NCBI GenBank assembly: GCA_028820845.1
Contig: JAPPII010000035.1
Location: 1-64,000, forward strand
Reading direction: 5' to 3'
From: Candidatus Poribacteria bacterium
GTDB taxonomy: Bacteria > Poribacteria > WGA-4E > WGA-3G
Length of the DNA: 64,000 bases
Numbering within the stretch: position 1 is the first letter of the stretch; every line of letters begins with the position of its first letter. Under the pieces are notes generated by a model. It did not search any database and had not been told where the DNA came from. It saw nothing but the letters and a program-made list of their open reading frames with translations. Of the stretch, positions 40,780 through 57,631 are shown piece after piece. A program made the translations under genes and the position numbers.

Positions 40780-41874
40780 TCAAGGCTTTCTTTGTATGTA
40801 TTCTTTAAACTTATGTGTCGCACGCGGGAGCGGATAATCACCTAACGTCTCAATCTGAATCCACTTCGCATCCCGTGGTCCATTCAGCACAACCTTACCC
40901 GACTGATAATCGCACACAAAGACATCCACGACTATCTTGAAATGCGTGAAAGCGTGTCTCACACGGGTGAGGTATTTTATATCGCTGACAGAAAGATTAA
41001 CGACCTCTCTGATGTTCCGAACGCACGCTGCTTCAGCGGTCTCACCTTCAGCAATCTCACCCCCCGGGAACTCCCAGAGTCCACCGAGCAGCCCGTTAAG
41101 CTGTCGCTGTGTAATGAGAACCTCGTTCCCTCTGTAGATGACCCCGACAGCAACGCGATGTTCCGGCACAGGTTTCGTCTCGCGACGTTTCGGGAACTCG
41201 TCTTGACGTGCCGTCTGGAACGCCTCACAAAACGCATTCACAGGACAGATGAGACAGGTCGGCGATTGCGGACGACACACAGTGGCTCCCAACTCCATCA
41301 TCGCCTGATTAAAAAGTCCGGGGGCCTGTTGATCCAAGAGTTTATCTGCGCGCGCCTGAAACCGTTTCGCTGACTTCGCATCGTTAACCGGTGCATCCAT
41401 CAGGAACAGACGCGCCACCACGCGTTTGATATTCCCGTCCACAGCGGCATAAGGTTCATTAAAGGCGATGCTCTGCACCGCCGCCGCGCTGTAATCGCCG
41501 ACACCGGGTAATTTCCGAAAGGTTGCATAGTCCCGCGGAATCTTGCCATCCAACTCGTTCACAATAACCTGTGCGGCTTTGTGGAGGTTCCGCGCTCTGG
41601 CGTAATACCCCAAACCTTCCCAGACCTTCAGTACATCTTGGAGCGGCGCGGCTGCCAAGTGCTGCACGTCAGGAAACCGGTCGATGAACCGTTCATAGTA
41701 GTCTACAACCTTCTTGACCTGCGTCTGTTGGAGCATCACCTCCGAAACCCAGATGTAGTATGGGTTATCTGTGTTCCGCCACGGCATCTCGCGCTGGTAG
41801 TCTCCGAACCAGTTCAGCAGTGCGTCTCGGAAGTCTTGGAGGTGTTGGGTTAACGGTTTTTTGTGCATATTCAT
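40780..41874 (-). CDS. mutY: A/G-specific adenine glycosylase
   Basis: MutY removes adenine mispaired with 8-oxoguanine. The helix-hairpin-helix GPD core is evident: V-S-E-V-M-L-Q-Q-T-Q with the catalytic Glu, and L-P-G-V-G-D-Y-S-A-A-A-V with the catalytic Asp. The 4Fe-4S Cys pattern C-x6-C-x2-C-x5-C is complete (V-C-R-P-Q-S-P-T-C-L-I-C-P-V-N-A-F-C). The C-terminal NUDIX-like 8-oxoG sensing domain carries L-L-G-G-L-W-E-F-P-G-G-E. At 364 residues it is full length. Starts at M1 or M3 are equivalent. Confidence 0.96.
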   Translation of the reverse strand: MNMHKKPLTQHLQDFRDALLNWFGDYQREMPWRNTDNPYYIWVSEVMLQQTQVKKVVDYYERFIDRFPDVQHLAAAPLQDVLKVWEGLGYYARARNLHKAAQVIVNELDGKIPRDYATFRKLPGVGDYSAAAVQSIAFNEPYAAVDGNIKRVVARLFLMDAPVNDAKSAKRFQARADKLLDQQAPGLFNQAMMELGATVCRPQSPTCLICPVNAFCEAFQTARQDEFPKRRETKPVPEHRVAVGVIYRGNEVLITQRQLNGLLGGLWEFPGGEIAEGETAEAACVRNIREVVNLSVSDIKYLTRVRHAFTHFKIVVDVFVCDYQSGKVVLNGPRDAKWIQIETLGDYPLPRATHKFKEYIQRKP

Positions 41875-41986
41875 TCATCTGAATCGCGGATTATACGGAT
41901 TACACGGATTACACGGATTTTGGGCATCCTTGTCTTTTACGTCTCTTGTAAAAACCAATGCCACCTCATTATAAGTTGTTTCGTTC

Positions 41987-42008
41987 GTAGTAGTGCGATT
42001 CATCGCAC
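41987..42008. repeat. Single REP unit
   Basis: GTAGTAG foot with hairpin TGCGAT-TC-ATCGCA, the inverted orientation of the type-B hairpin found at 32.8, 38.2, 60.5 and 62.8 kb. It lies between the SUMF1-like gene and mutY. Confidence 0.8.
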
Positions 42009-42029
42009 GTCGCGCAGCACAAACCGAGC

Positions 42030-42749
42030 TTAAAGATCCATGGCAATCCGAAAACCGACGCTGTGAATCGCCTGTATCGGTTCATACGCCGCACGGTTCG
42101 CACACCGCGCCGCAAACTCCCCACGTGCAATCCACGAACCGCCACGAATCACTCGCCGCCGACCTTCACTCGCGCCCAACGGATTCTCCGCAGGCGAGTA
42201 TTTGTAGGTCTCCATGTGAAACCAGTCGCTGCACCAGTCATAAGCGTTGCCTGCCATATCGTAGCACCCGTAGGGACTCATACCGGATGGATAACTCCCG
42301 ACAGGCATCAACCGCCGATTCCCCGATTCCGATGTGTTTGCTCTGCTTGCATCCCATACGTCTCCCCAAGGATATTCGCGGGCATCCGTGCCGCGCGCCG
42401 CCTTCTCCCACTCCGCCTCCGATGGCAAGCGATACCCTGTATCTTCATACGCATTGAGCCATTCCAAAAAACGCATCGCATCCTCCCAACTCACACCGAC
42501 GACAGGGCAATCGGGGGCGTTGAGATGTGCTTCTCTCCAGAACAGCGGGTGTGGATCTCCCGTCGCCTCTACAAACTGTGCGTATTGGGCGTTTGTGACC
42601 TGATACGTGCCGATAGCATAAGCATCGAGCAGCACGCTCCGTTGCGGTTCTTCAGGGTCGGTCTTTCGGAGTCCAGTCGGGATGGTGCCCATGATGAATT
42701 CACCATCAGGGATATGGATGAGCGGGTAATCGAGTGCTTCGATGTGCAT
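42030..42749 (-). CDS. SUMF1/formylglycine-generating-enzyme-like protein
   Basis: A 239-residue FGE-sulfatase fold protein: I-P-D-G-E-F-I-M-G, E-E-P-Q-R-S-V-x-L-D-A-Y, Y-R-L-P-S-E-A-E-W-E-K-A-A-R-G, G-N-A-Y-D-W-C-S-D-W and the C-terminal R-V-I-R-G-G-S-W ending G-F-R-I-A. True FGE uses a C-x4-C copper site. Here only one Cys (A-R-C-A-N-R-A) remains at that place, so sulfatase activation is unlikely. It may be a ligand-binding or non-oxidase member. No sulfatase gene is nearby. Confidence 0.88.
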   Translation of the reverse strand: MHIEALDYPLIHIPDGEFIMGTIPTGLRKTDPEEPQRSVLLDAYAIGTYQVTNAQYAQFVEATGDPHPLFWREAHLNAPDCPVVGVSWEDAMRFLEWLNAYEDTGYRLPSEAEWEKAARGTDAREYPWGDVWDASRANTSESGNRRLMPVGSYPSGMSPYGCYDMAGNAYDWCSDWFHMETYKYSPAENPLGASEGRRRVIRGGSWIARGEFAARCANRAAYEPIQAIHSVGFRIAMDL

Positions 42750-43387
42750 ATTGGGTGCAGTATGTTCCTTGCTATAAAAGATCAGATAGAAACTTCTGCT
42801 TTAGTATAGCACATCTTTAACCCATGTTTCAATCTGTGCTTATTGTCTGAATCAGGATGCACAGGATTCAAGGATTCACGGGATTATACAGATACGAATA
42901 TGTATTTAACATAATGATATATTTTCTTAGAATCCGCCTTAAAATGAAAATGTTACACTGGTGTAACATTTTTAAGACGGGATGGAGCGTTAGTAAACCC
43001 AGTGGTTGTAAAGGTTAGTTGACGTTTTATTTTCTGTTGGAAAAAAATAAAAAGTCCGAAAAGTGTAACATTTTTTATGTCTGTTGGTTGTTTTTGGTTA
43101 ACAGTTAGTAATAAATTTCTGTGGTTGGCTGAAAAGATTTGTGTGGATTTCCACACCAGCGCTTTATAAATTGATACAATATTCACCCTTCACCTCTTTG
43201 GAAAGTCTTATGCTATATTATACTATCTTTGCTAACGGATGTCAAGTAAAAAATAAGTTGGCGATTGGCAGATGGCGACTGGTGTCTGTCAGAATCAGGA
43301 TTTGCAGGATTTTAGGATTTACAGGAGTGCGGTCTGAATCGCGGATTTTCACGGATTATCGCGGAGGACGCGGATTTTGAATTCTGA
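42750..43387. other. Gene-free spacer bordering the defence island
   Basis: These 638 bp contain no credible gene. They hold a 12-bp inverted repeat (42947-42972), a further half-copy GTGTAACATTTTTT near 43059, and degenerate GGATTTACAGG/CGGATTATCGCGG repeats near 43290-43370. The region is AT-rich and could mark the insertion edge of the island. Confidence 0.5.
42947..42972 (-). terminator. Palindrome ending the minus-strand half of the island
   Basis: AAAATGTTACAC and GTGTAACATTTT form a perfect 12-bp inverted repeat with a 2-nt centre, U-rich on the 3' side in either direction. It lies about 415 bp downstream of the AAA gene and upstream of the SUMF1-like gene. It may be a terminator, or an operator because GTGTAACA recurs near 43063. 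Confidence 0.45.
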
Positions 43388-44563
43388 TTATCCAATTTCT
43401 TTGTCCAACTCTTCCTGACTCATCTCTTGTACAAATTTGAGCGTAATTTCCGAATCCTTTCCGTCTTGAAAAATCCTCCTCTCAAACGCTCTCATCAGCG
43501 CATTACGACACCGCTTATTCATGTCTCTCGGTGTTCCGCGTTGTAAGTTAGACATGAGTGCCCTGAGTGCCTCCTCTGTAAACGGAAAATAAGGCGTTTT
43601 GGGTTTTTCTTCGATTCTATAGTGAGAGAGAAGTTCACGGACATATTGCAGCATCTTTTCTTGGTCTTTCACTTCATGAAAGAAAATCTGTCCGGTAATC
43701 CGATCAGTGAGATAACCTCCGAGAATCAGTTCAATTTCCTCATATTCCTCCGGCGAAGTAAGCGTGAAATTCATGAAAAGTGTGAAGAAATAGGGGAGGC
43801 GATCTACCAGTTCACGCAACCCTTGTCCAAAAGGACGGTATTGTGGAGGTGTAAAATAGATGAAATTCTCCATTTCATCAATCCATAGGCAGAATCGATT
43901 GTGCTGGGTTACATCAGCGGACTCAGATAACCCAGTAAGACAACGAAAAACGCCTGCCAATACCCGAAAATAATCTTGCGTTTTCTCAATGTTTCGATTC
44001 AAGCCAAGTTTCCGCAATTCAGTAGTTGTGCATTTGCCGAGAAAGTACGCACTTAGCGGCGATCCAGCCCCTGGGGAAATTGGCGAAGCCTCATATAACT
44101 TAAGCAGCGCATTCACGAAATCACTGCTTACCATCGTTTGACGCAGGTTTCGCTCAACGACGTTCCGCCCAACAGACCCCACGTTTTTTTTCACAGCTTC
44201 CCCTATTCGCTCAAGTCCAATCTGCTCGATGACATCCAGATAAAAATCCCTTGCAGGATTCCCGGTTTCAGTAGGTGTCTGAACTCTGAGAACTTCTATA
44301 CTCTGTATACTCGGAGATGCGTCAGGAATATTTTTGTCAGAACTAAAGAAAAGTGAAGCATGGGTTTTGCCGCCGCCAATAGGCCCTCGACATAGTACCA
44401 CTTGCGTTGGTGCAGATGCTTTTGCTTCCCAGAAGACACTTTTAAATTCATCTTTGAGTTCATCCATGCCTGCCCAAATTGCTCGTTTAGGGTCAGTAGG
44501 AGGGTTAACCATAAAGGGGTTTTCCCGCAAAGTCACTAAATTCCAATCAATTGAGAACTTCAT
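43388..44563 (-). CDS. AAA/P-loop ATPase of the divergent defence module
   Basis: A 391-residue cytoplasmic ATPase. Walker A is G-P-I-G-G-G-K-T-H (60-68), with the Thr-His variant common in ORC/BrxD-like loaders. Walker B is F-C-L-W-I-D-E-M (224-231). A C-terminal helical segment contains R-G-T-P-R-D-M-N-K-R, reminiscent of a sensor-2/arginine region, and an arginine-rich tail follows. It probably drives loading or remodelling of a nuclease complex. It is the last gene of a three-gene operon, starting 3 nt after the stop of the PIN gene. I cannot assign it to a named defence family. Confidence 0.78.
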   Translation of the reverse strand: MKFSIDWNLVTLRENPFMVNPPTDPKRAIWAGMDELKDEFKSVFWEAKASAPTQVVLCRGPIGGGKTHASLFFSSDKNIPDASPSIQSIEVLRVQTPTETGNPARDFYLDVIEQIGLERIGEAVKKNVGSVGRNVVERNLRQTMVSSDFVNALLKLYEASPISPGAGSPLSAYFLGKCTTTELRKLGLNRNIEKTQDYFRVLAGVFRCLTGLSESADVTQHNRFCLWIDEMENFIYFTPPQYRPFGQGLRELVDRLPYFFTLFMNFTLTSPEEYEEIELILGGYLTDRITGQIFFHEVKDQEKMLQYVRELLSHYRIEEKPKTPYFPFTEEALRALMSNLQRGTPRDMNKRCRNALMRAFERRIFQDGKDSEITLKFVQEMSQEELDKEIG

Positions 44564-44566
44564 AAC

Positions 44567-45196
44567 TCACCTCATTTTTTTCACAGATGGCATGTTTTTA
44601 AGCATGCTATCTAACAACTTGAGACAACCACGATACTTACTCAGGCGTTTTGTTATTTCCTCTCGCGTTCCGGCGACGTTAGGATTTACATGTCTTAAAG
44701 CCGAATAAGCCTGAACGTACGACCACTTTGGAAACATAACGAGATAGATATGCATCAGTAAATCCAATGAAGTCCAAGTTTCTGCTGTTTTGAAGTGCCT
44801 TTCGTACCAATCTATAAAACCTCTACGTGCATTCATATCATCTGTTAACATGATGACCTGTCCTGCATATTGTCTCCGAACCAACCAAAGGGTGAGTGCG
44901 CAGTTATAACGTTCTCCTTGATTTTTACATGGATTGCCACTTGGGGCAAATTGGTCGAAAAGGATCTTCTCATAATCCCGTTCACGGTGAAAATAGCGCC
45001 TTGCTTGACGTACAAATTGCAACATTTGCTTGCCGTGGTTTCCTAACTGCCCTCTATGTCGTCTAATCTCGTGGGGAATCTCTCGTGAGACTTGCACATC
45101 AAACAGTTGACTTAAAACCTCAGTGATATAGGAACGTCCTACATAGACCTCATGTATGTTTATGAGTGAAGATGTATCGGGAATCAGAATGTCCAT
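44567..45196 (-). CDS. PIN-domain nuclease of the divergent defence module
   Basis: A 209-residue protein with a PIN-fold RNase/DNase core. Acidic metal ligands fit the family: D7 (I-P-D-T-S-S-L), E43 (E-I-P-H-E-I), E95 in G-E-R-Y-N-C-A-L, and D119/D120 (I-M-L-T-D-D-M-N-A). The start ATG at 45196 lies 10 nt beyond the previous stop and directly precedes the first conserved strand. No small antitoxin is adjacent, so it is not a classic VapC. The tight operon with an ATPase and a winged-helix protein suggests an effector nuclease. Confidence 0.8.
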   Translation of the reverse strand: MDILIPDTSSLINIHEVYVGRSYITEVLSQLFDVQVSREIPHEIRRHRGQLGNHGKQMLQFVRQARRYFHRERDYEKILFDQFAPSGNPCKNQGERYNCALTLWLVRRQYAGQVIMLTDDMNARRGFIDWYERHFKTAETWTSLDLLMHIYLVMFPKWSYVQAYSALRHVNPNVAGTREEITKRLSKYRGCLKLLDSMLKNMPSVKKMR

Positions 45197-45206
45197 AAAT
45201 CTTGAG

Positions 45207-46304
45207 TTAGGTTGGAAAAAAGATAAGATAAGACTCATTCTCGCGGTGGGAAAATCGAACTGCATGCGGTGTATCAAGCTCTTTAGAAAACGTATTTAGA
45301 TCTGCATGAAGTTCCTCAAGGTTCACCGCGATGCCCCTATCCACAATGAGAAGGAGTGCCATATAAATGAGTGCAGGATATAAAGAAATCTTCGGGGTCG
45401 GTGTACTCCGGAGCGTTTCAAAAGCCTGAAAAGTGAGTTTATGAAGCAGTTCTTTTCTGTCTAACTGCTGTATATTTGCCCATTGCCGGTCAGTTGTGCC
45501 ACTAAGCACCCGTCCAGCAATGCCAAAAAATTGCCTCCGCAACCACGCCGGACTTGTGTGAAAAACCTGCCCTTCTTGAATTTTCGGAAGAGATCGAGAA
45601 AACTGTATTCCCCTCTTTGTTAATCCAGACTGTCTCTTTCCATCACTTGCAATTGAGACTAAACCGAGGTCTGCCAACCAATGAATACGTGGCGGCACAA
45701 TATTTTCAATAGAACGTTTTGATTCTTCCTTCCAATGTGCCACGCGATTTCGGACTGACAAGATGTCACGTGCTACATGCTCTTCCGCTGTCAACATGCG
45801 GGCTTGCAATTGCTGAAGATAAAACGTGGGAAAAGCGTTTTGCAAATCGGCAAGAGATTGAGGAGATCTGCCTACCAACATTCTAATAACTGTCAGAAGT
45901 TGATCGCTATCCTTCAACAGAAGCCAATACAAATACGCACAGCGTTCCGCGTGAGTCAGTTCAAACGGATTGTGATCGGGTGCTTGGTGGAGAAACGGCA
46001 GCAATGTTTTCCCAAACCGTGTAACGCGGCACGCGCCAGCGATTCGCCCTATAAGCCCCAACGAAACAGCGAAATTCGTATAACGTTTTGGAGCAGCTTG
46101 CCCGCGTGTCGCTTTAATAAATCCCTGCTGATTCGCGTAACCCATCAAATCTTTTTCATGATTAAGGCTCCATTTTTCAAGTCGAGAATAAAGCGTAGAC
46201 TCGCCTAATGTTTTATGCTCAAGCAATCGTAGAATTGCGGAAACATAACCGAGGCGGCGAACAAGCGTGTTAATCTCTGTGATTCCAACTTCATACTTGG
46301 GCAT
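45207..46304 (-). CDS. Winged-helix-like protein of the divergent defence module
   Basis: A 365-residue protein I do not recognise by name. Two segments look like winged helices: residues about 60-105 (Y-T-N-F-A-V-S-L-G-L-I ... V-T-R-F-G-K-T-L-L-P-F-L) and about 205-240 (I-H-W-L-A-D-L-G-L-V ... G-L-T-K-R-G-I-Q-F). This plan recalls the DUF4007/BrxA style of DNA-binding helper proteins. It is the first gene of the minus-strand operon. Its start is 237 bp from the start of the DUF4007 gene in a divergent arrangement, so one regulatory region may control both operons. Confidence 0.65.
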   Translation of the reverse strand: MPKYEVGITEINTLVRRLGYVSAILRLLEHKTLGESTLYSRLEKWSLNHEKDLMGYANQQGFIKATRGQAAPKRYTNFAVSLGLIGRIAGACRVTRFGKTLLPFLHQAPDHNPFELTHAERCAYLYWLLLKDSDQLLTVIRMLVGRSPQSLADLQNAFPTFYLQQLQARMLTAEEHVARDILSVRNRVAHWKEESKRSIENIVPPRIHWLADLGLVSIASDGKRQSGLTKRGIQFSRSLPKIQEGQVFHTSPAWLRRQFFGIAGRVLSGTTDRQWANIQQLDRKELLHKLTFQAFETLRSTPTPKISLYPALIYMALLLIVDRGIAVNLEELHADLNTFSKELDTPHAVRFSHRENESYLIFFPT

Positions 46305-46505
46305 TTAGCAATTTACCCGCTGAAAGCAACACTACGAAACCTAAAAAGAAAAAGAGCGTGACATATCACCTAAAAGGTTTTGCCTAGTAAGTATTACAAA
46401 CATGGGAAAACCCTCTGAAGTCAAGCACTACTGCAACGAACAATAAAAGCATACCAGATTTTCCAAAAAATGTCAAAAAATATCCCGAATCTTCGCGAAA
46501 ATATG

Positions 46506-46534
46506 TTGCGTTTTTCCGCTATCTATCGTATAAT
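46506..46534 (+). promoter_or_regulatory. Leaderless promoter of the plus-strand defence operon
   Basis: TTGCGT (46506-46511), 17 nt, consensus TATAAT (46529-46534). The expected start site falls 6-8 nt downstream, essentially on the ATG at 46542, so the DUF4007 mRNA would have almost no leader. An upstream in-frame ATG at 46470 lies before this promoter and would not be transcribed from it. Confidence 0.6.
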
Positions 46535-46541
46535 AAGTTAT

Positions 46542-47498
46542 ATGGAAAATCTCCTAATCTCCGAACACACAACTTCGCCATATCTGGTGAGTCCATCCTT
46601 TTCAGGGCACCAGACATTTCCGTTTCGGTATACATGGCTAAAAAAAGGTGTTGATGCAGTGATGGATAAGACAAACGTTTTTACAGACGATAATGCACCA
46701 GTTACTTTAGGCGTTGGTAAAAACATGGTCGGTTCCATACGTCATTGGTGTTTAGCTGCCAACCTTATTGAAAAAATATCGGGTGGTTTTAAGGCATCTG
46801 AGTTTGGTGAAGCAATTTTTAAGGATAAAAAGGGATTTGACCCTTACCTCGAAAATCCATCTACTTTGTGGTGGATCCATTGGAAAATTGCGACAAATAA
46901 AAATCAAGCAGCCACGTGGTCTTGGGCTTTTAATTTCCTCAATTACCCAGAGTTCACAAGAAAATCCTTAACTAAGGACCTTATCTATTGGATAAAACAG
47001 CAAAAAAATATAAGAAAGCAGCCTTCCGAAAATACGATCCAAAAGGATGTCAACTGCTTTTTTCGAACATATTGTCTTTCACACTCATCAGAAACTGCAA
47101 TTATTGAGGACACATTTGATTGCCCATTGGTCGAATTAGACTTAATTCGCGAAGTACAGGTTGAGCAGGGCGAAAACAGGTATCAATTCAATTTGGGTCC
47201 AAAACCATCGTTGACAGATTCAATGCTTGCTCTAACTATAAGCGAATTCTGGAATGATTGTTTTCCAAACTCGAACACACTTTCTTTTTCAAAAGTCATG
47301 TATTCAAAATTAAGTCCTGGTCAAGTTTTCAAACTTGATGAGAATACATTGGTAATGTCCCTCGAAAAACTTGAAACAATAACTCATGGTAATATGATTT
47401 TTGATGATACTGCAGGATTAAAGCAGATTTCCCGACATGAAAAATTGGATATGCTAGAACTTTTGAAAGGTGTTTATTTGAAAGGTGTTTATGAGTAA
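46542..47498 (+). CDS. sspB: DUF4007 protein, SspB-like
   Basis: A 318-residue DUF4007 member. The diagnostic N-terminus F-S-G-H-Q-T-F-P-F-R-Y-T-W-L-K-K-G and V-T-L-G-V-G-K-N-M-V-x-S-I-R-x-W are present, followed by winged-helix-like segments (E-F-G-E-A-I-F). DUF4007 proteins accompany DNA phosphorothioation; SspB nicks DNA so that the SspC/SspD proteins can place sulfur on one strand. The order DUF4007, large ATPase, PAPS-reductase-like protein here matches sspBCD. Start ATG at 46542 is chosen from the promoter position and conservation. The stop codon overlaps the start of the ATPase gene by 8 nt, indicating coupling. Confidence 0.82.
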   Translation: MENLLISEHTTSPYLVSPSFSGHQTFPFRYTWLKKGVDAVMDKTNVFTDDNAPVTLGVGKNMVGSIRHWCLAANLIEKISGGFKASEFGEAIFKDKKGFDPYLENPSTLWWIHWKIATNKNQAATWSWAFNFLNYPEFTRKSLTKDLIYWIKQQKNIRKQPSENTIQKDVNCFFRTYCLSHSSETAIIEDTFDCPLVELDLIREVQVEQGENRYQFNLGPKPSLTDSMLALTISEFWNDCFPNSNTLSFSKVMYSKLSPGQVFKLDENTLVMSLEKLETITHGNMIFDDTAGLKQISRHEKLDMLELLKGVYLKGVYE

Positions 47499-50400
47499 AG
47501 TACTATCTGACATTTTTCACGTTAAAGGGCGTTTCCAACGCTCAGTTCACCTGGAGCGGGATTTCTATACCGATGAAAATCTTTTGGAGGGCTACGTTGT
47601 AACAGAAACAGCACTTGAGATGTTAGAGCGCATCGTTTCAGCTTTAGAAAACGGTAAGTCATCGAAAGCATGGTCTCTCACTGGACCTTATGGATCTGGA
47701 AAATCAACTTTTGCACTCTTTACTGCAAAGCTGCTCAGGAGTTCCGTCTCTCCGACAACGCGACAAGCATTAAAACTACTTGAACAAAAGAATACCGACT
47801 TATATAAACGATTCACCAATATAAAAGGTAACAAACAGTCTTCTCCTTTTAAGTTCTGTCCTATTCTTATTTCTGGAGAACGCGCTCCAATCTCGCTTGC
47901 TCTTTTACGTGGTTTGCAACGTGGTCTTACCTCTTTCAATGGAATATCAGAAACAAAATCCCCACTTCCGACAATTAAGAAATGTTTGGAAGCAGCAGGA
48001 AAAGGAACCCTCCCTAACTCTTCTGAAATTATAAAACTCTTTGAATCAGCAATGCACCAAGTTGAGGAACATGAAGGCACTGGGTTATTGCTCGTGATTG
48101 ATGAGTTCGGAAAGTTTCTTGAATACGCTTCTCAGTACCCGGCACAAGGAGATATGCATGTTTTACAAGAACTTGCTGAATTTGCTGAGAGAAGTGAAAA
48201 GACCCCCTTATTTTTTTTAACTATCCTTCATCAAGCGTTTGAAATGTACGGACAACGTACCGCGAAATTACAACGTGAAGAATGGGCAAAAATCCAAGGA
48301 CGATTTGAAGATGTTCCCTTTATTGAACCCACAGAGCAATTACTCCACTTAGTCGGCACAGCACTTGAGAAGTCTTTAGACATCGCCTGCAAAGATAATT
48401 TTAACAGTGTAACTGAATTAGGGCTTAAGCTTCGCCAACTTGACGACACTGAATTTATCCAACTCTTGGAAAGTTGTCTTCCGCTCCATCCTACAGTGTC
48501 ACTTCTCATTGGACCACTCTTTCGCCGATTCGCACAGAACGAACGTTCTCTTTTCGCCTTTATGAGTTCAAGTGAACCATCCGGCTTGCAAGACTTCCTT
48601 TCAACCCAACATTACTGTGGTAACCGACTACCAACGTATAGACTCGCAAACCTGTACGATTACTTTAACCTCACGCAAGGTAATAAACTCTATACCTCTG
48701 GTGAGGGCAAGAAATGGGCTGAAATTGAATCCGCCATTAATCGGTTGCCGGATCCTACCGAAATAATGGTTAAAGTGATTAAAACTATTGGACTACTCAG
48801 TATCGCCGGAGAGGTAATAAACAGTTTAAAAGCTTCAGAAAAGTTGCTTTATTATGCACTTGACGATAATTCAGAAACCTTCGCAAAAGAATTTGGTTCT
48901 GCCATCAGCGAATTAAAAAAACATTCGATTATTACTCACCGTAGTTATAATGATACTTTTTTAATATGGGAAGGGAGTGACATTGACATTGAGGCCAAAC
49001 TCCTTGAAGCTGAAACACATGTTAACACAACGGGAGCATTTGCTACAAATCTATCGCACTACATGCCGAAACGTCCCTTGGTTGCACGACGACACCTGTT
49101 TGATAAAGGCACTTTACGGTACTTTACTGTTCGTTACACCGATCTTGAGAACTTTGATGCGGATTTGAGAGAATCGTTTGAAGATGCAGATGGCCTCGTA
49201 CTTTATGCTTTGCCTATAAGTGAATCTGAATCGGAACAGTTACGTAAAAAAGCAAAAAAGGTGAACCGAGAAGAAATCTTGATTGCAATTCCTAACTCTA
49301 TTGGTTCTCTGCAAGAGGCAGCTTTTGAGGTGGCAAAATTACGATGGGTTCAACAAAATACATCCGAATTACAAAGGAATCAGGTCGCAAGACGTGAACT
49401 ATCAGCAAGACTTATAGAAGCAGAAAAAGATGTTTTGAGACAATTAAAAGCAATTTTTGACGAAAACAACGCGAACACTTGCTGCTGGTACCATAAAGGA
49501 CAACAAAGGAAAAATATTTCAACCCATAGTGTAAGAAACGCATACCTGTCAACAATCTGCGACCAAGTTTACAACCGGACACCGACCCTACGGAATGAAC
49601 TCATCAATCGGCGAAAAATCTCTGGGACAGTGACAGCAGCAAGGCGAGAATTAATCCAAGCCATGCTTGAAAATGGAGACCAAGAAAATCTTGGTATCAC
49701 CGGCTCTCCGCCTGAAATGAGCATCTACTGTTCCCTTTTATTGAATTCAGGAATACATCGAAGCCATTACCGTAAATGGGGATTTCATCCACCCAACAGA
49801 ACACACGATAAAAACAAAATGAAGGATACATGGAATGCCATTGAGGATTTTTTTATCAAGTGCGAAAATGAGCGACAACCTATTACAGAACTCTATAAAA
49901 GACTGATGGCAAAACCTTATGGAATCCGAAGGGGTCCACTTCCAATTCTGTTGTGTGCTGCGATACTCTGTTACAAAACAGAAGTCGCACTCTATGAAAA
50001 TGGATCCTTTGTACCGGATCTGTCAATGCCAGTTTTTGAACGGCTGCTTAAGGTTCCTGAACAATTTGAACTGAAAAGGTTTCGGATGACAACCCACAGA
50101 ACAGATGTTTTAGCACGGTACCTAGAGGCTCTTGATCAAACATCAGATATAGACATACCAAATCTGTTAACAGTAGCCACACCACTTATGCTTTTTGTTG
50201 CTAGCCTTCCTAAATACACTTTGATGACTCAAACTTTGAGCGAAGATGCCAAAAACCTGCGGGAAGTCGTTTTAGACGCGCGCGAACCTGACACATTGCT
50301 CTTTTATGATTTACCTGAAGTCATGGGGTACCCCGCTTTCAGTGCAGAAAGAGATACTAATCCGGCAAAGACGGACCAATTCTTCAAAGCAATGCGGAAC

Positions 50401-50982
50401 GTATTAGACGAACTAAAACAGACTTATCCTTCTCTGCTAAATTCTGTTGAACAACAGCTAGCATTTAATTTCTCTGTAGAATATAAAGATGAACAACTCC
50501 GTAGAGAATTAATTAATTTAGCTGAGCCATTAGAGGAAGTTACAAGAGGCACACAACTCACAGGATTTTTGATGCGAATTTGCGACAGTGGACTTGATTT
50601 CGATAATTGGCTTGAAGCAATTGCAACTTTCGTAGTCAACAAACCACCTGCCTCTTGGATAGACAAAGATAAAGCACAATTTGAAATCAGCCTTTCTCAA
50701 CTTGCAAAGAAATTTCTACATTTTGAAGCAGTGTCATACGAAAAACGGAAACGTTCCGAATCATCAGAAGGGCAACGAATTCGGATAGGAATCACCAGGC
50801 CAAACCAAGATGAGCAGGTGTGGGTTGTTACTTTGCCGCTTACCACTGAGAAAAGAGTTCCCGAAATAGGAAAGAGGTTAAAAGAAGTCCTTAATGATTT
50901 TAAGATAGATGCCGATCCTGATCTTCGTAGTGCTATTTTAGCATGCATTTCACAAGAGTGGAAGCAACAGCAGGAAGAATAA
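47491..50982 (+). CDS. sspC: Large P-loop ATPase, SspC-like
   Basis: A 1163-residue cytoplasmic ATPase. Walker A is G-P-Y-G-S-G-K-S-T (65-73), and Walker B L-L-L-V-I-D-E-F-G-K-F (199-209) is followed by a sensor-like F-F-L-T-I-L-H-Q-A-F. The arrangement resembles the ATPases of Ssp and, more distantly, BrxC. The central and C-terminal regions are long helical segments without a second recognised domain. Its position between DUF4007 and the PAPS-reductase-like gene supports the SspC role: ATP-driven assembly of the sulfur-incorporation complex. ATG at 47491 overlaps the sspB stop. Confidence 0.8.
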   Translation: MSKVLSDIFHVKGRFQRSVHLERDFYTDENLLEGYVVTETALEMLERIVSALENGKSSKAWSLTGPYGSGKSTFALFTAKLLRSSVSPTTRQALKLLEQKNTDLYKRFTNIKGNKQSSPFKFCPILISGERAPISLALLRGLQRGLTSFNGISETKSPLPTIKKCLEAAGKGTLPNSSEIIKLFESAMHQVEEHEGTGLLLVIDEFGKFLEYASQYPAQGDMHVLQELAEFAERSEKTPLFFLTILHQAFEMYGQRTAKLQREEWAKIQGRFEDVPFIEPTEQLLHLVGTALEKSLDIACKDNFNSVTELGLKLRQLDDTEFIQLLESCLPLHPTVSLLIGPLFRRFAQNERSLFAFMSSSEPSGLQDFLSTQHYCGNRLPTYRLANLYDYFNLTQGNKLYTSGEGKKWAEIESAINRLPDPTEIMVKVIKTIGLLSIAGEVINSLKASEKLLYYALDDNSETFAKEFGSAISELKKHSIITHRSYNDTFLIWEGSDIDIEAKLLEAETHVNTTGAFATNLSHYMPKRPLVARRHLFDKGTLRYFTVRYTDLENFDADLRESFEDADGLVLYALPISESESEQLRKKAKKVNREEILIAIPNSIGSLQEAAFEVAKLRWVQQNTSELQRNQVARRELSARLIEAEKDVLRQLKAIFDENNANTCCWYHKGQQRKNISTHSVRNAYLSTICDQVYNRTPTLRNELINRRKISGTVTAARRELIQAMLENGDQENLGITGSPPEMSIYCSLLLNSGIHRSHYRKWGFHPPNRTHDKNKMKDTWNAIEDFFIKCENERQPITELYKRLMAKPYGIRRGPLPILLCAAILCYKTEVALYENGSFVPDLSMPVFERLLKVPEQFELKRFRMTTHRTDVLARYLEALDQTSDIDIPNLLTVATPLMLFVASLPKYTLMTQTLSEDAKNLREVVLDAREPDTLLFYDLPEVMGYPAFSAERDTNPAKTDQFFKAMRNVLDELKQTYPSLLNSVEQQLAFNFSVEYKDEQLRRELINLAEPLEEVTRGTQLTGFLMRICDSGLDFDNWLEAIATFVVNKPPASWIDKDKAQFEISLSQLAKKFLHFEAVSYEKRKRSESSEGQRIRIGITRPNQDEQVWVVTLPLTTEKRVPEIGKRLKEVLNDFKIDADPDLRSAILACISQEWKQQQEE

Positions 50983-51075
50983 AAATAAAATTTAGTTTTA
51001 CTTTATGTGTGCGTTATGTTAAAATTGATTTAAGGTAATGATTCTTCTCGATTAAAGGCATTTATAGGAGGGAGC

Positions 51076-51951
51076 ATGGCACAAAAAACACGTCATCTTC
51101 TCGGACTCTCAGGTGGAAAAGACAGCTCAGCACTTGCAGTTTACATGCGAGACAAAGAACCAGAAATGGAATACTTTTTCACTGATACCGGAAAAGAACT
51201 ACCAGAAACCTATGAGTACTTGGATAAGTTGGAGGTATTCCTTGGCAAAGAAATCATCCGCCTCAACGTTGAACGCGATTTCGATCATTGGCTAACACTA
51301 CACGGAGGTTTGTTACCATCGTCTCAGGTGCGTTGGTGCACCATTAAGCTGAAAATAAGACCTTTTGAAAAACATGTTGAAGAACACTTCAGTGAAGATA
51401 AAGTGTATCACTACATTGCTATCCGTGCTGATGAGGATCGTATCGGCTACAAACCACCAAAAATCTCGTCTCTCCGCAACATCGAACCCAAATATCCTTT
51501 CAAAGAGGACGGCATCACTAAAGAGGATGTCTACCAAATTTTAGAGAAAAACGGGGTAAGACTCCCCGCCTACTACGACTGGCGTACGCGTTCCGGATGC
51601 TATTTCTGCTTCTTCCAACGTAAATCTGAGTGGGTTGGACTGTTAGAGCAGCATCCTGACCTCTTTGAACTCGCTAAAACATACGAAAAACCGAATCCAC
51701 ATTCAAAAACTGGAGAATTGTTCACATGGTGTCAGGGTGAAAGTTTAGAAGAACTATCAAAACCGGAACGGATAGCAGAAATCAAGGCAAATACCAAAAA
51801 GGCGATAGAAGATAAGAAAAAAGCAATAGCAGAAAAGAAAAAGATCAAGCCGAATCAAACCTTGATGCAAATCCTCACTCCAACTGAAATCCTCGCTGAG
51901 GTTCTTGACGATGAGGATGATGAGGAGCCGTGTTTGATTTGTCATAAGTAA
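51076..51951 (+). CDS. sspD: PAPS-reductase-family ATP pyrophosphatase, SspD/DndC-like
   Basis: A 291-residue PP-loop enzyme. The ATP-binding motif S-G-G-K-D-S-S is at residues 12-18. Cys residues C88 (R-W-C-T), C175-x-x-C178 (S-G-C-Y-F-C-F-F) and C219 (T-W-C-Q) form the spacing expected for a DndC-type 4Fe-4S cluster. A further C-x-x-C ends the protein (C286, C289). The enzyme would adenylate DNA phosphate and transfer sulfur to the backbone. A cysteine desulfurase (DndA/SspA) is not encoded nearby, so a chromosomal IscS must supply sulfur. A strong AGGAGGG ribosome binding site precedes the ATG, 93 bp after the ATPase gene. Confidence 0.85.
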   Translation: MAQKTRHLLGLSGGKDSSALAVYMRDKEPEMEYFFTDTGKELPETYEYLDKLEVFLGKEIIRLNVERDFDHWLTLHGGLLPSSQVRWCTIKLKIRPFEKHVEEHFSEDKVYHYIAIRADEDRIGYKPPKISSLRNIEPKYPFKEDGITKEDVYQILEKNGVRLPAYYDWRTRSGCYFCFFQRKSEWVGLLEQHPDLFELAKTYEKPNPHSKTGELFTWCQGESLEELSKPERIAEIKANTKKAIEDKKKAIAEKKKIKPNQTLMQILTPTEILAEVLDDEDDEEPCLICHK

Positions 51952-51994
51952 TAGGTGTATAACTTGTGGATGATGAGGCCTAAGGTCTGTCAGT

Positions 51995-52627
51995 ATGAAT
52001 ACAATTGAGTTTCAAGGTAGTGACATAGCGGGAACTCCGGAACTACCGGGTATTTATGCGTGGTATTATCGGCCACGTGTATTCGGGGACCGTGAGGCTG
52101 AAACGTTAGGAAGGTTAATCACAAGTCCTTCAAACGTAAAGACTGAAATTGCTATGCGGTATGACCTAGTTTGGGAAGTTGATTCAGATGCCAAGGTTCT
52201 ACATGGGGGAAGACAGAAACGTCAACCGGTCGATAAAGTTGTTTCAGGTGCGGTTGTTGAAGGGGGTGATTTAATCAAATCCTTTCTTCAAAATTTGATG
52301 GTTCCTTATTTTGCTACACCGCTCTATATTGGTATCGCTAGCAAGAACTTACGCCGGAGAATTAAGCAGCACTATGATTTACTTACTCAGCTATGGGAAC
52401 CCGATGAACCAATAAGTAAGTATCTGGCAAACCATTCTAATGCGCGGGTGCAAGAGGTCCTAGATCAGTTTGATTTAAATCATTCTTTTGCTATTAATGC
52501 AAGAGTAAAAGGGATAGCTCCAAAAGATTTAGTAGTCTGCGTTTATCCGGTTGATCTACAAGATAAGTTAAGAAACTTAGAGCAAATTCTTCAAATTCTA
52601 GCCGATCCAATTTGTGGAAGGGGATAA
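51995..52627 (+). CDS. GIY-YIG nuclease-like protein
   Basis: A 210-residue protein with a GIY-YIG signature: G19-I-Y21 (L-P-G-I-Y-A-W-Y-Y) and Y111-I-G113 followed by R120/R121 (A-S-K-N-L-R-R-R-I-K-Q-H). A long insertion of about 90 residues separates the two halves, as in Eco29kI-like enzymes. A later Glu (N-L-E-Q-I-L) could be the metal ligand. It is the most likely DNA-cleaving component of the plus-strand operon, possibly acting on unmodified invading DNA. Codon use is more AT-rich than in flanking housekeeping genes. The next gene starts 3 nt after its stop. Confidence 0.75.
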   Translation: MNTIEFQGSDIAGTPELPGIYAWYYRPRVFGDREAETLGRLITSPSNVKTEIAMRYDLVWEVDSDAKVLHGGRQKRQPVDKVVSGAVVEGGDLIKSFLQNLMVPYFATPLYIGIASKNLRRRIKQHYDLLTQLWEPDEPISKYLANHSNARVQEVLDQFDLNHSFAINARVKGIAPKDLVVCVYPVDLQDKLRNLEQILQILADPICGRG

Positions 52628-52630
52628 ACA

Positions 52631-54940
52631 ATGTCTAGAAGTTTTGATAATCCTAAAACTTCAGTAATTTATGGTTCATTTGGTGAATTTACTATAGGTA
52701 AAGGTGAAAATACTATTCGTGCGAAATATCTTCTTACGAAAATAAAGCCCGGGAGTGATGGTAATTGGGAATGCGAATTAGCATCCGAAATGAAACCTTG
52801 GCGTGAGGTATTTAATGTTGAAGAGTTGAGTTTTGATGAGTTATTACAGCGGGATCTTGATGATTCACGAGTAGCACACGATCTAATTCCCTACTTGCTT
52901 GGTGAATTAGGAGGTAGAGCAAAGTTCTTTCCTCCAATTTTAGCGGTAATTGTTCCTCGTAAAGATACTGGATCGGGTATTGAGGGTTTTTATCCACCTC
53001 AAGAGGTCATTAATCAGGTTGAGGAGTATGGTAATTTATTTGATTTTGAACAAATTGAATGGGATGGCCAGTTAACACCACTGGCAAGTCTGAGTTACAA
53101 CAGACAACGTTCTGCTTTCATAATTGTTGATGGTCAACACCGAGCTATGGCAGTGCTAGCTCTACACCGTCAACTGAACCAAAATTGGGGGGACAATGCT
53201 TTCGCCTCTTATTATGATCATATTGAGGTAACCTCTGAACAAGTCAAAAGTATTGAATTGCCAGTATGTATCGTCTATTTTCCAGACCTACATAAGGGTA
53301 ATCCTATACCGCGAGAGCAAGGTATTGATTTAAGTTCTATTTGTCGCGAAATATTTCTGGTCGTAAATCGTAGTGCTAAACGAGTTAGTGCAGCGCGAAC
53401 TCTTTTGCTAGATGATGATGATATCGCTGCACGCCTAATGCGTAAAACCTTGTCCACTCTCAAAAATCGTAACAGAAAAGAGGACGGATTAGCCCGAATC
53501 TATTCAATTTCTTATGGAGATTCAGACACAGAAATTGGAGAGAAAGAAGTTATCTCAGGTCGACTTGAATATAGCAGCGCGATTGCGCTGCACAAAGTTC
53601 ATGGAGCATTGTTTTTCGGTTCTGATGAAGCATTTAGACTAGACAATTATGAAGATATTTCAGATGGTCGCAAAATAAGAAACAGCAACCGTCCAGTTGA
53701 GATCTTACTTGGAACAAGAATTGAAAACTACCCAACTTTATCGCGTAATTCAGGTAAGACATTACCTCCGGATGAAGTAGATGAAATAATTGAAAAACTG
53801 GGGGATATGGCAGACAAAGCACTAGTAAGCCTTTTTGATGGATTTCGTCCCTTTACAATTCATAATTCCGAACTTCGTCGCTTGAGAATGAAACTTTTAG
53901 ATCCTAACTTTCAATCTCAGGTTGAACAGAAAAAAGCATATAGTCTGGTTTTTGAAGGAAGTGGAGTTCGGAATGTTTTTGAATCACATTTTGAAAGGTT
54001 GAAAGATGAAAGAGAAGCATGTATCTATGAAGATGGAACAGCTCCGCTCCATTTACAGCGACAGATTAAATTCTGTGAATCTGTGATGCAAGCACTCGGC
54101 TATCATGAACGCGAATTTCATCGTTTTCGAGCATGTAGTTTTTTTCATATAAACCCCGACTTGTTTGATAATGAAAACAACCAGGAAGATCACGTAGAAT
54201 TGAGCCAAAAGGCCCGCGTCCTCTTCCAAACTTTGGCAACCCAGGCTTTTCAACTTGGCTATGCTATGACTATTTTTACCGTTGTTGAAGAATTAAAACG
54301 CTTGCAACCTCTGACCTCTCCTTTTGAATATCCGAAAAGATTTGAACTTGTAGAATTTGTTACAGAAGTTTATCTCGCAGCCCTTAACAAATACTTCTCT
54401 CCGAAAGAAAAAACGGTCCATAGGAGTCTCACCGGTTACATACGCGAACCACGAGTTTCAATTTTTGATGCGAACGCGCACGGACTTCGGGGGCTCTTAG
54501 CGATGAGTATCAGTGAATTAAATGAGCGTCAGTGGCGATTTTTCCGATATGTCATCTTAGAAATTGTTCACTCTCCGTTCTGCTGGAAAGCGGCTCAATC
54601 AAAAATGAAAAAAATGAACAACGAATGGGCACTAGAATGGTATAAAAAAGCAATTCCTACACTGGTAGATGGTATTATCTCAGAACGTGAAAAATATATT
54701 AACGATGCCATTGAAGCTTCTGTAAAAGGACGAGAATTTGAATTACTTAGAATGCGCACAGAAGCTGAAGAAAGAGGGTCTGGCAAAACCCATGAGCAAA
54801 TTCAGGATAGTATTGAGAAACTCCAAAACGCGCGTAAGGAAGCTGCAAAGAAAAACACAGATAGTCATCTAAAAGCAAGTCTAGAAGATATTGAAGAAAA
54901 AGAAGATATGGTTAAACGCTTAATTGCCCGACTGCAATAA
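52631..54940 (+). CDS. DGQHR-domain (DndB-like) protein
   Basis: A 769-residue protein of the ParB-like DGQHR group. The signature F-I-I-V-D-G-Q-H-R (D167-R171) is intact. Family members include DndB, which negatively regulates dnd modification, and DNA-sensing NTPases. Here the protein is about twice DndB length, with a long helical C-terminus (residues 650-769 are strongly charged and coiled-coil-like). It may recognise modified sites and control modification or restriction. It sits between the GIY-YIG and GHKL ATPase genes, so it probably acts with them. It could replace SspE, whose DUF262 part carries a related motif. Confidence 0.75.
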   Translation: MSRSFDNPKTSVIYGSFGEFTIGKGENTIRAKYLLTKIKPGSDGNWECELASEMKPWREVFNVEELSFDELLQRDLDDSRVAHDLIPYLLGELGGRAKFFPPILAVIVPRKDTGSGIEGFYPPQEVINQVEEYGNLFDFEQIEWDGQLTPLASLSYNRQRSAFIIVDGQHRAMAVLALHRQLNQNWGDNAFASYYDHIEVTSEQVKSIELPVCIVYFPDLHKGNPIPREQGIDLSSICREIFLVVNRSAKRVSAARTLLLDDDDIAARLMRKTLSTLKNRNRKEDGLARIYSISYGDSDTEIGEKEVISGRLEYSSAIALHKVHGALFFGSDEAFRLDNYEDISDGRKIRNSNRPVEILLGTRIENYPTLSRNSGKTLPPDEVDEIIEKLGDMADKALVSLFDGFRPFTIHNSELRRLRMKLLDPNFQSQVEQKKAYSLVFEGSGVRNVFESHFERLKDEREACIYEDGTAPLHLQRQIKFCESVMQALGYHEREFHRFRACSFFHINPDLFDNENNQEDHVELSQKARVLFQTLATQAFQLGYAMTIFTVVEELKRLQPLTSPFEYPKRFELVEFVTEVYLAALNKYFSPKEKTVHRSLTGYIREPRVSIFDANAHGLRGLLAMSISELNERQWRFFRYVILEIVHSPFCWKAAQSKMKKMNNEWALEWYKKAIPTLVDGIISEREKYINDAIEASVKGREFELLRMRTEAEERGSGKTHEQIQDSIEKLQNARKEAAKKNTDSHLKASLEDIEEKEDMVKRLIARLQ

Positions 54941-54971
54941 ATTTGTAGGGAGTTTGTTCATAAAATCAACC

Positions 54972-57437
54972 ATGAAGCAACTTTTCAACAAACTATACTT
55001 CGCCCAAACTGAGGACGATGTTGATAAAGTCATCAACGCTCATCCGGACATTTTCAAACCTGAAAATTGGTCTCCACTCGGCGGTAACGAAAACAATTTC
55101 GGTGTTATCGAAAACCAACAATCTACTCCGATCGCAGCACTGATTGAGAAAATTACAAACTCAGTTGATGCCGTTCTGATGAAGAAATGCTTGGAAGCAG
55201 GTATTGATCCGAAATCCCGTCAAGCCCCCAATTCTATGGAAGAAGCCAAAATGAGTTTCTTTTCAAATTACGGAAAATGGGATCTATCAAAATTCCGGAA
55301 TCAACAAGCAGAAAGCATCCAAGTTCTTGCTGATGGACCTCGACGAAATACCTCTTTAATAATTTATGATGATGGTGAAGGCCAGCATCCTGAAGAATTC
55401 GAGAGTACCTTTCTGTCATTATTGAGTGGAAATAAAAACGAAATCCACTTCGTCCAAGGCAAATACAATATGGGGGGTAGCGGTGCCATTGTATTCTGCG
55501 GCAAAAAGCGGTATCAATTAATCGCTTCAAAACGTTTTGATAATACCGGAGAATTCGGTTTTACATTAATCAGAGAACACCCACTGAGCAAAGCAGAAGA
55601 AGTCACGAAAAAGAATACATGGTATGAATACTTGAAAATTGATGGGAAAATTCCTGCTTTTCGAGCAGACAGACAAGATTTAAGGCTGCATAACAGGCCC
55701 TTCACAACTGGAACGATTATCAAACTCTATTCTTATGATTTACCTTCGGGAATTTCAGATATTTCAAGGGATTTGCATCAGAGTATCAACGAGTACCTAT
55801 TTGAACCTGTTTTGCCAGTGTACACAATTGAAAAAGAAGAACGCTATCCTAAGAGTTCTTTGCGTAGGGGTTTATACGGATTAAAGCGCAGGTTAGAACA
55901 GGAAGATAACAAGTACGTTGAAAAATCTTTTTCCGAGGATTTTGACGATTCTCTTTTTGGCAATATGAAAGTGACGTGTTATGTCTTCAGAACAAAAATT
56001 GATGATAGATCTGTCAAAGAGACTAAGGACACAATTCAACGCGAGTTTTTCAAAAATAATATGTCTGTGCTTTTTTCAGTCAATGGGCAAACACACGGGC
56101 ACTACACATCCGAATTCATAACCCGCTCCCTCAAATTGAATTTACTCAAAGAATATCTGCTTATTCATGTTGATTGCACGAACATGAATTACGATTTCCG
56201 CAAAGAACTATTTATGGCATCTCGTGACCGGTTAAAAGATGGTGAGGAAACCAGAGCATTACGAAAATTTTTGGCAGATAAACTCGGTAGCAAAAATGGA
56301 CGTTTAGCAGAAATTCAAAAACGACGAAAGGACTCAATAGCGGTAGAGAGTGAGGATGCGAAAGAGTTGCTTAAATCTTTCGCACAAAATTTCTCCCGAA
56401 ATACAGAATTGCTAAAATTATTGGAACAAACTTTAAATTTAGATTTGCCACCTAAAGGTAAGGAAAAAAGAGACACTAACAACTCAACGAAGGAAAAACA
56501 GCGAAAAAAGGAAGAACAACCCTTTAATCCCAAACGATTTCCCGCATTCTTCAAACGACGGACGCAAGGGAAAAAGGATAAGGAAGTAGTCGCAATACCG
56601 CTTGGTGGAGAGAAAACAATTTTCTTTGATACGGATGTTGAAAACAATTATTTCGATCGTATAGAAGAACCTGGAGAGTTGAAAATTGCCATTCTTGATT
56701 TCAAAAGGAATGACACGGAAGGGGGAAATGCCCCAGGAAAAGTTGATCGGATTGAAAATGTATTTAATGCGCGGAAAAGCAGCCCACAAGATGGAACCAT
56801 CAAAATTCATCTCAATCCTAAAAAAGAAGTGAACGTTGGGGATGAAGTAAAAATCAAAGTTAGTTTGGAAGATCCAATAGGGGAATTTGAGGAAATATTC
56901 TGGGTGAAAGTGAGTGAGCCGAAGGCACCTACGCAACCCTCACCGAAACCTGACAAACAGGAAATACCGAGTTTAGGATTGCCCGACTTGATATACGCTT
57001 ACAAAGACGGTAGACCGGAAAGCAATGGTGAATTAACCTGGGAGCAAGTTGCAGAGGCAACCGGAGAAGAAATGGACTATGCTACTGTCATGTACCCTAT
57101 GGTGAATGGAGAAAAGTTAGAGAGCATTTACATTAATATGGATAGTACTGTTTTGCAGAATTTCAGAGCGAAAACCCGAAATCCAAACCAAGAACAGTTA
57201 GAGAAGTCCAACCAGAGATATATCGCCTCCGTATATTCTCATGTTCTGTTTTTGTACTCAATTACAAAGGCGCGTAAATATCAGGTTGTGCAAGAGCAAA
57301 ATGACACCAATTTTGACAATAACGGCACTTCCGATGTTGAATTAGGGATTTATCTCAAAGATTTGTTTGATAGTTATTACGCAGAATTTCTTGTCAACTT
57401 CGGTTTTGATGAAATTATGCAATTGTTAGGAGATTAA
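54972..57437 (+). CDS. GHKL-type ATPase of the defence operon
   Basis: An 821-residue protein with an N-terminal Bergerat fold ATPase: N-box E59-K-I-T-N63-S-V-D66, G1 box D-D-G-E-G (133-137), and G2 box K-Y-N-M-G-G-S-G-A (164-172). The following 250 residues probably form a transducer domain, as in MORC and gyrase/MutL ATPases. Residues about 480-545 are lysine-rich and low-complexity; a beta-rich module and a helical C-terminus follow. MORC-like ATPases in bacterial defence islands are thought to clamp DNA and activate nucleases. ATG at 54972 is 31 nt after the DGQHR gene; an earlier frame start overlaps that gene and is less likely. Confidence 0.78.
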   Translation: MKQLFNKLYFAQTEDDVDKVINAHPDIFKPENWSPLGGNENNFGVIENQQSTPIAALIEKITNSVDAVLMKKCLEAGIDPKSRQAPNSMEEAKMSFFSNYGKWDLSKFRNQQAESIQVLADGPRRNTSLIIYDDGEGQHPEEFESTFLSLLSGNKNEIHFVQGKYNMGGSGAIVFCGKKRYQLIASKRFDNTGEFGFTLIREHPLSKAEEVTKKNTWYEYLKIDGKIPAFRADRQDLRLHNRPFTTGTIIKLYSYDLPSGISDISRDLHQSINEYLFEPVLPVYTIEKEERYPKSSLRRGLYGLKRRLEQEDNKYVEKSFSEDFDDSLFGNMKVTCYVFRTKIDDRSVKETKDTIQREFFKNNMSVLFSVNGQTHGHYTSEFITRSLKLNLLKEYLLIHVDCTNMNYDFRKELFMASRDRLKDGEETRALRKFLADKLGSKNGRLAEIQKRRKDSIAVESEDAKELLKSFAQNFSRNTELLKLLEQTLNLDLPPKGKEKRDTNNSTKEKQRKKEEQPFNPKRFPAFFKRRTQGKKDKEVVAIPLGGEKTIFFDTDVENNYFDRIEEPGELKIAILDFKRNDTEGGNAPGKVDRIENVFNARKSSPQDGTIKIHLNPKKEVNVGDEVKIKVSLEDPIGEFEEIFWVKVSEPKAPTQPSPKPDKQEIPSLGLPDLIYAYKDGRPESNGELTWEQVAEATGEEMDYATVMYPMVNGEKLESIYINMDSTVLQNFRAKTRNPNQEQLEKSNQRYIASVYSHVLFLYSITKARKYQVVQEQNDTNFDNNGTSDVELGIYLKDLFDSYYAEFLVNFGFDEIMQLLGD

Positions 57438-57631
57438 ATTCTTTTGTCTCTTATAGATGTTAACCTGCCACGGATAACAACATAAGCTAAAATCACGACT
57501 ATAGAAATTCAATTATACCTCGCCAGTAAACATCTACATCTTTCCAAGTGCTACCATAAACTTTCTTATCTAAAAACCGAATACTCCCCAATCCTCATTC
57601 TATAGACATAACACGCCAAAATCAACGGTAT

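Follow-up and report, generated by a model that had tools for sequence, protein, structure and literature searches.

A candidate phosphorothioate-based restriction locus with exchangeable effectors in a Candidatus Poribacteria genome

The known effectors of Ssp-type phosphorothioate (PT) modification are SspE and SspFGH. What, then, might act as the effector where an SspBCD core is accompanied by other genes? This question is raised by a locus in a 64,000-nucleotide stretch of a Candidatus Poribacteria bacterium (assembly GCA_028820845.1, contig JAPPII010000035.1, positions 1 to 64,000; hereafter the window), which lies in contig 35 of a draft genome of 5.7 Mb. Nine open reading frames (ORFs), all found at 43388-57437 where the initial annotation of this DNA had placed them, form two divergent operons, the forward one reading SspB-SspC-SspD-GIY-DGQHR-GHKL and the reverse one winged helix (wH)-PIN-AAA (Table 1). 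We read them as a PT-based restriction locus with exchangeable effectors, in which SspBCD would mark the DNA, the GIY-DGQHR pair would be a split counterpart of SspE, the GHKL gene would be an add-on and the reverse triad would be a separate unit; we regard this reading as evenly poised between right and wrong.

The profile-based assignment of SspB, SspC and SspD by PADLOC and Pfam is secure and unambiguous, and it bears out the earlier description of DUF4007, large ATPase and DndC-like PP-loop genes as sspBCD in order. The start of SspB is probably downstream of the annotated position. The SspB and SspC genes share 14 bp, followed by gaps of 93 bp (SspC-SspD), 43 bp (SspD-GIY) and 3 bp (GIY-DGQHR), and since the gene order recurs in relatives it is not a product of chance. 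No cysteine desulfurase SspA was found among the nine genes. Complete genes of the class-V aminotransferase/desulfurase family, whose identity as IscS is unproven, are present elsewhere in the same genome, and in other Ssp systems a genomic cysteine desulfurase stands in for SspA (PMC8092258). Across the phylum SspB is 51-88% identical to the window copy and SspC is likewise variable, compared with 71-86% for SspD, as if the predicted recognition subunits SspB and SspC had been exchanged among loci.

Table 1. Predicted features of the locus and its left flank, with positions in the window
Feature	Coordinates	Strand	Evidence
mutY and FGE-like gene, conserved left flank, shared slot of sspBCD islands, outside the system	40780..42749	-	matched in the 38 genomes of the genus
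AAA-type ATPase, no named family	43388..44563	-	Walker A G60..GxGKT67 and Walker B D229E230 invariant in 9 homologues
PIN-like nuclease (predicted)	44567..45277	-	invariant acidic residues; AlphaFold model matches VapC
wH protein, first triad gene, possible DNA-binding subunit	45207..46304	-	HTH_45 in 4 of 10 homologues; weak AspA match
Divergent promoter region between the operons	46305..46469	.	165 bp without ORF
SspB (DUF4007; predicted DNA-binding/target-recognition subunit)	46470..47498	+	Pfam DUF4007 E 2.5e-87, residues 44-336; PADLOC SspB 4e-98
SspC (BrxC-like large ATPase)	47485..50982	+	PADLOC SspC 1082 bits, BrxC 632 bits
SspD (PAPS-reductase/PP-loop sulfur-insertion enzyme, predicted)	51076..51951	+	PADLOC SspD 6e-115; PAPS_reduct 1e-11
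GIY-YIG nuclease subunit (predicted); insert of ~90 residues between GIY and YIG	51995..52627	+	invariant residues in homologues
DGQHR (DndB/ParB-like) protein, 769 aa; N-terminal DGQHR domain plus ~500 aa, fold unassigned	52631..54940	+	profiles, motifs
GHKL ATPase (HATPase_c_3-like)	54924..57437	+	HATPase_c_3 7e-5; conserved motifs

None of the six non-core proteins matches a named defence family above cut-off in PADLOC, Pfam or NCBIfam. The effectors had been taken for something other than SspE or DndFGH, with a partial identity to a named set such as SspFGH or PbeABCD left open, and the PADLOC SspE, SspF and Pbe models match nothing in the window; the profile check proposed at that stage, run here with PADLOC, does not return the nine genes as one characterised system. 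For SspE, Pfam (DUF262) and PADLOC are both silent in the window, and the same PADLOC model matches a related locus, L025, at 6e-259. For SspFGH there is no match in the window in PADLOC, a library that holds an SspF model (600 positions, matching none of the loci) and whose SspG and SspH models were unchecked by name. PADLOC likewise reports no PbeA helicase or PbeC in the window, with its PbeA model matching locus L152 strongly, and no DndD or DndE with DndC. PglZ and BrxL find no match among the nine proteins in Pfam, PADLOC or NCBIfam. On these profile results, identity with SspFGH, PbeABCD, DndFGH or Type 4 BREX was rejected.

There are nevertheless clear likenesses to these systems. The locus shares with SspABCD-SspE (PMC9646914, PMC13251355) the SspB-SspC-SspD order and, next to SspD, an effector with the nucleoside triphosphatase (NTPase) motif of the ParB superfamily (DGQQR there, DGQHR here), and SspE holds the equal position in sister loci; however, the nuclease here is of GIY-YIG instead of HNH type and sits on a separate protein, sspA is missing from the locus, and GHKL and wH-PIN-AAA genes are added. 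In SspABCD-SspFGH (PMC8092258), too, several genes form the effector of SspBCD and SspE is absent, but the FtsK-like end of SspH is absent here. IscS-DndBCDE-DndI offers a ParB-superfamily motif and, in DndI, the logic of a PT-gated NTPase-nuclease, whereas the core here is SspBCD and not DndCDE, DndI joins DUF262 and HNH in one protein, and our DGQHR protein is twice the size of DndB. PbeABCD, of which the window holds no match, is a PT-linked effector set that also stands behind SspD in sister loci of the phylum. Finally, Type 4 BREX (PMC12839542) has DUF4007, a BrxC-type ATPase and a PAPS reductase in common with the window, although its PglZ and BrxL are not matched here and SspC scores far above BrxC.

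For the comparison with relatives, 85 genomes of the phylum were searched with the PADLOC SspD model, the loci were taken, ORFs were called and the proteins were clustered. Full-length or near-full-length SspD is present in about 50 of the 85. The resulting set comprises 54 loci with an SspD-sized gene, the window included, nearly all from one phylum and thus not independent of each other, often on draft contigs and with mechanical ORF calls. Behind SspD stand, depending on the locus, SspE (7 loci), a PbeA-type helicase (7), a short HNH protein (25), GIY-DGQHR pairs, GHKL or others. The HNH protein, of about 300 aa (cluster c2; L162:9312-10211 and 24 other sspD loci), often directly follows SspD, and its N-terminal part, which may be a sulfur-binding domain, weakly matches a type IV restriction model; the protein is possibly a PT-reading nuclease encoded beside its own PT modification module.

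It is the GIY-DGQHR pair that occupies this position in the window, and the two genes travel together. When all 39 DGQHR-motif genes and their same-strand neighbours were counted, a GIY-like gene lay directly upstream in all 15 long-type loci (622-799 aa, plus one frameshifted copy), at distances of about -15 to +24 bp if the overlong start in L022 is discounted. For DGQHR genes of all sizes the figure is 28 of 39, which counts L082 (384 bp apart) and a GIY fragment of 72 aa in L149. The pair falls into several diverged subfamilies and extends beyond the phylum to Cyanobacteriota, Alphaproteobacteria and Actinomycetota: plasmids of Geminocystis and Trichormus carry it with SspBCD and a cysteine desulfurase, Roseobacter litoralis has the order sspA-B-C-D-GIY-DGQHR, Asticcacaulis also has the pair, on a Rhizobium pTi plasmid it adjoins an FtsK-like gene, and in Nonomuraea it adjoins a cysteine desulfurase and a dnd-associated methyltransferase. 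No DGQHR relative was found in phage records. In the open-access literature, with subscription papers and preprints outside the search, we found no description of a GIY-DGQHR pair with SspBCD. A separate observation is a 4.5-kb contig binned as Ekhidna (Bacteroidota; L002), which codes for GIY and DGQHR, the latter 90% identical to its counterpart in the window, together with the end of SspD and part of GHKL, and which may represent a recent transfer or a mis-binned contig.

The initial annotation had named the GIY-YIG and PIN proteins as candidate nucleases, and both have kept that standing on account of invariant active-site residues. In the GIY protein Y21, Y111, G113, R122, H126 and E196, the GIY-YIG catalytic set, are invariant over 12 homologues, and for this reason we assign it to GIY-YIG although by itself it scores under the Pfam cut-off; one short relative passes GIY_YIG_2. 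Sequence searches of the PDB with single proteins and profiles gave weak matches of GIY to UvrC and endonuclease II and of wH to AspA, and were otherwise uninformative. The DGQHR protein is matched by TIGR03187 (1.7e-7) and DndB (1.6e-6), each under its cut-off, and Q73-R74, D167GQHR171 and F242xxxN246 are invariant over 11 homologues. Q-R, DGQHR and FxxxN are the three motifs common to DUF262/GmrS NTPases and DGQHR domains (PMC4619093). In both SspE (PMC9646914) and DndI (PMC11662687) a PT-stimulated DGQQR NTPase controls the nuclease, and NTP hydrolysis and defence depend on the arginine of this motif. Since SspE and DndI have a DUF262 NTPase half of the same superfamily, with the same motifs, the DGQHR protein may be a PT-reading NTPase, and the pair would then be a two-protein counterpart of SspE, composed of an NTPase that senses PT and a separate nuclease.

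Several findings weigh against this reading. The PT-sensing tyrosine of SspE and DndI (Y30/Y25) appears to be replaced by leucine or methionine before Q-R, which is a reading of the alignment and not of a structure. The AlphaFold model of the DGQHR protein, from an alignment built on the window and genome loci with plasmid sequences left out, has a predicted local distance difference test score (pLDDT) of only 49, and its fold search retrieved no SspE or ParB structure, a result without meaning at that confidence. GIY is lacking from L173, a plasmid locus added later that combines sspBCD with a long DGQHR gene, and GIY-DGQHR pairs occur in L022 and L170 without sspBCD nearby. L025 carries both SspE and a pair; therefore, the pair need not replace SspE. 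In addition, DndB, of all DGQHR proteins the best known, regulates the transcription of dnd genes in Salmonella (PMC4507180), which leads to the most serious rival, namely a role of our DGQHR protein as a DndB-like regulator keeping phosphorothioation in check, with GIY-YIG, GHKL and PIN as separate back-up or suicide effectors. Short DGQHR relatives do match DndB over the full length (E 1e-31), and passages of Rakesh et al. (2024; PMC10853773) assign, in general terms, a presumed back-up role to URI/GIY-YIG, HEPN and PIN genes around dnd loci; those passages contain no GIY-DGQHR unit and no Ssp loci in such detail. However, GIY is not a boundary gene, as it lies immediately upstream of DGQHR and swaps with it, and the long DGQHR protein has about 500 extra residues and falls below the DndB and DGQHR cut-offs. 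Two DGQHR types also coexist, as a long and a short pair in L021 and as a long pair with a second, shorter DGQHR gene in Nonomuraea, suggesting different jobs. A DndB-like role thus seems to us rather unlikely, if still a serious contender.

The pair could alternatively be a type IV-like restriction enzyme that cuts incoming PT DNA from other bacteria. Enzymes that cut PT DNA exist, with sulfur-binding HNH nucleases described in passages of PMC7461809, and the two pairs without sspBCD would fit such a role, but most pairs share an operon with a PT module and would attack their own host, which makes this explanation very improbable.

The relation of the pair to the remaining genes can be judged from the way the parts recombine. 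Compared with the window, L023 (G074) has SspD and GHKL each at 82% identity but GIY at only 27% and DGQHR at 31%, which indicates that the pair swaps as a unit. L079 keeps SspB at 88% and SspC at 84% with a quite different effector, while L020 has the same effector as the window, with GIY at 70% and DGQHR at 78%, but SspB at only 56%. Based on these identities, SspBC (the presumed specificity module), the pair and GHKL recombine independently. The nine genes comprise at least four exchangeable modules, SspBCD, GIY-DGQHR, GHKL and wH-PIN-AAA, each of which is also found apart. The initial annotation had seen a single multi-stage system of nine genes, and this view is not supported in that form. 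A second PT locus in the same genome (G000:C4; L165) has DndC-like and DndD genes with a convergent HNH gene, a short DGQHR gene and GIY, and is without the triad.

The GHKL protein has intact Bergerat motifs (invariant E61..N65, D135xGxG and G165-G173). Its annotated start is a TTG overlapping DGQHR, and homologues favour an ATG at 54972. It is found in 12 of the 85 phylum genomes and in 12 of the 54 sspD loci, with the other copies on short contigs. Outside the phylum, homologues of 44-58% identity adjoin sspBCD in Hymenobacter, Ensifer and Devosia, and distant ones (25-29%) in Pontibacillus and Haladaptatus are not beside ssp. The GHKL gene is an independent, sspBCD-linked module, probably with an accessory role. 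We also observed a second GHKL family (c25, MzaB-like by PADLOC for its L148 member) that is paired with another GIY-YIG-like family (c44) near SspD in L082:3981-8001 (G029), L138, L144 and L148; L082 has a DGQHR gene too, and so presents GHKL, GIY and DGQHR domains in a different arrangement.

The reverse triad is linked to PT genes in a similar way. In the PIN protein D34, E70 and E122 are invariant among homologues, the sequence profile is weak and under the Pfam cut-off, and the AlphaFold model (pLDDT 78) matches VapC PIN structures with template modelling (TM) scores of 0.5-0.7, E about 0.01 and a probability of up to 1.0. We retain the PIN assignment despite the sub-threshold profile because of these invariant active-site residues and the VapC fold match; according to homologues the start is probably near 45181 rather than 45277. 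The first triad gene had been described as winged-helix-like, and HTH_45 is found among its homologues, but the best E is 5.8e-5 and the label itself is weak. Its homologues adjoin AAA and/or SspB in relatives, and wH and AAA homologues occur side by side in the same genomes. The arrangement of the window, with the triad divergent from sspBCD, returns in L067 and L068; in L069 AAA and wH, without PIN, adjoin sspBCD, with a truncated GIY at the contig end; in L071 wH-PIN-AAA is followed by an SspB homologue; and in L076 wH alone is beside sspB. The triad of L072-L075 points away from a DndC-size gene, behind which come a DndD-like gene, identified as such by PADLOC on the same protein cluster in L165, and a short gene. 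L070 is too short for the neighbours to be read, and in every relative with readable neighbours triad genes stand beside sspB or dndC. The divergent operon had been regarded as part of the cassette and this is upheld, and an unrelated neighbour was rejected as an explanation, as the triad accompanies PT genes in relatives. The triad is a third module, and its link to both Ssp and Dnd suggests an accessory arm that reads the PT state or the failure of PT.

These linkages also bear on the possibility that the island merely holds several independent defence systems, i.e., SspBCD with one effector, GHKL and wH-PIN-AAA, that do not cooperate. Each module is found without the others, and the GHKL homologues of Haladaptatus and Pontibacillus do without ssp. 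Against this, all phylum GHKL loci long enough to be read are sspBCD loci, the close GHKL homologues elsewhere are also beside sspBCD, and the triad keeps to sspB or dndC. We consider independent systems unlikely.

If the locus works as we read it, SspBCD would place sulfur in host DNA at a short motif, and a housekeeping cysteine desulfurase would take the part of SspA. The DGQHR subunit would read PT DNA, hydrolyse NTP and, presumably through contact between the subunits, switch the separate GIY-YIG nuclease, which may be either licensed or restrained. Once switched, the nuclease would nick or cut unmodified phage DNA and so protect the cell. The GHKL ATPase might assist the pair or act independently. 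The triad would be a separate accessory module that serves Ssp or Dnd modification, perhaps as a suicide arm in which an ATPase senses DNA or damage and sets off a PIN ribonuclease.

The surroundings of the locus are consistent with an island. GC content is 0.38-0.44 over 43-59 kb compared with 0.45-0.55 on the left side and, past 59 kb, 0.50-0.53 on the right, and spacers without genes lie at 42750-43387 and 57438-57979, in agreement with the earlier remark that the nine genes are AT-richer than their surroundings and adjoin gene-free spacers. A promoter-like match (46476-46448, - strand) is found in the inter-operon region, although the total number of such matches is that of chance. Of the 54 sspD loci, 18 have mutY and/or the FGE-like gene next to it as a neighbour, so that one chromosomal slot is used repeatedly. 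A MazF/PemK-type toxin-like ORF (40217-40594, from ORF reading, without a profile) adjoins mutY. The right flank (57980-60399, a TetR gene and a gene for a repeat-rich protein) is kept in the genus but in complete genomes, G080 for example, lies a long way from mutY, which places the island at a rearrangement point. In a genome of the same species (G056) there is no trace of the locus, and its mutY contig stops shortly past FGE, at the island edge. This suggests that the locus is accessory, in line with the acquired cassette proposed initially, but G056 is 86% complete and the absence is uncertain.

At least three further PT-linked modules are present in this locus and its relatives that are unnamed in PADLOC (2023) and in the open-access papers searched, and one of them, the pair, spans several phyla. 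Should the pair be a split SspE, the PT-sensing and cutting steps would become assayable apart, unlike in the fused SspE. The 54 loci also lend themselves to the question of whether an effector has to fit the modification motif, because SspB/SspC alleles and effectors occur in shuffled combinations. More tentatively, and with some doubt on our part, the pair may be the founding member of a widespread group of split PT-gated nucleases exchanged with SspE and the triad a general second-line, probably RNA-cutting, arm for Ssp or Dnd, in which case PT loci would be platforms with interchangeable first- and second-line effectors.

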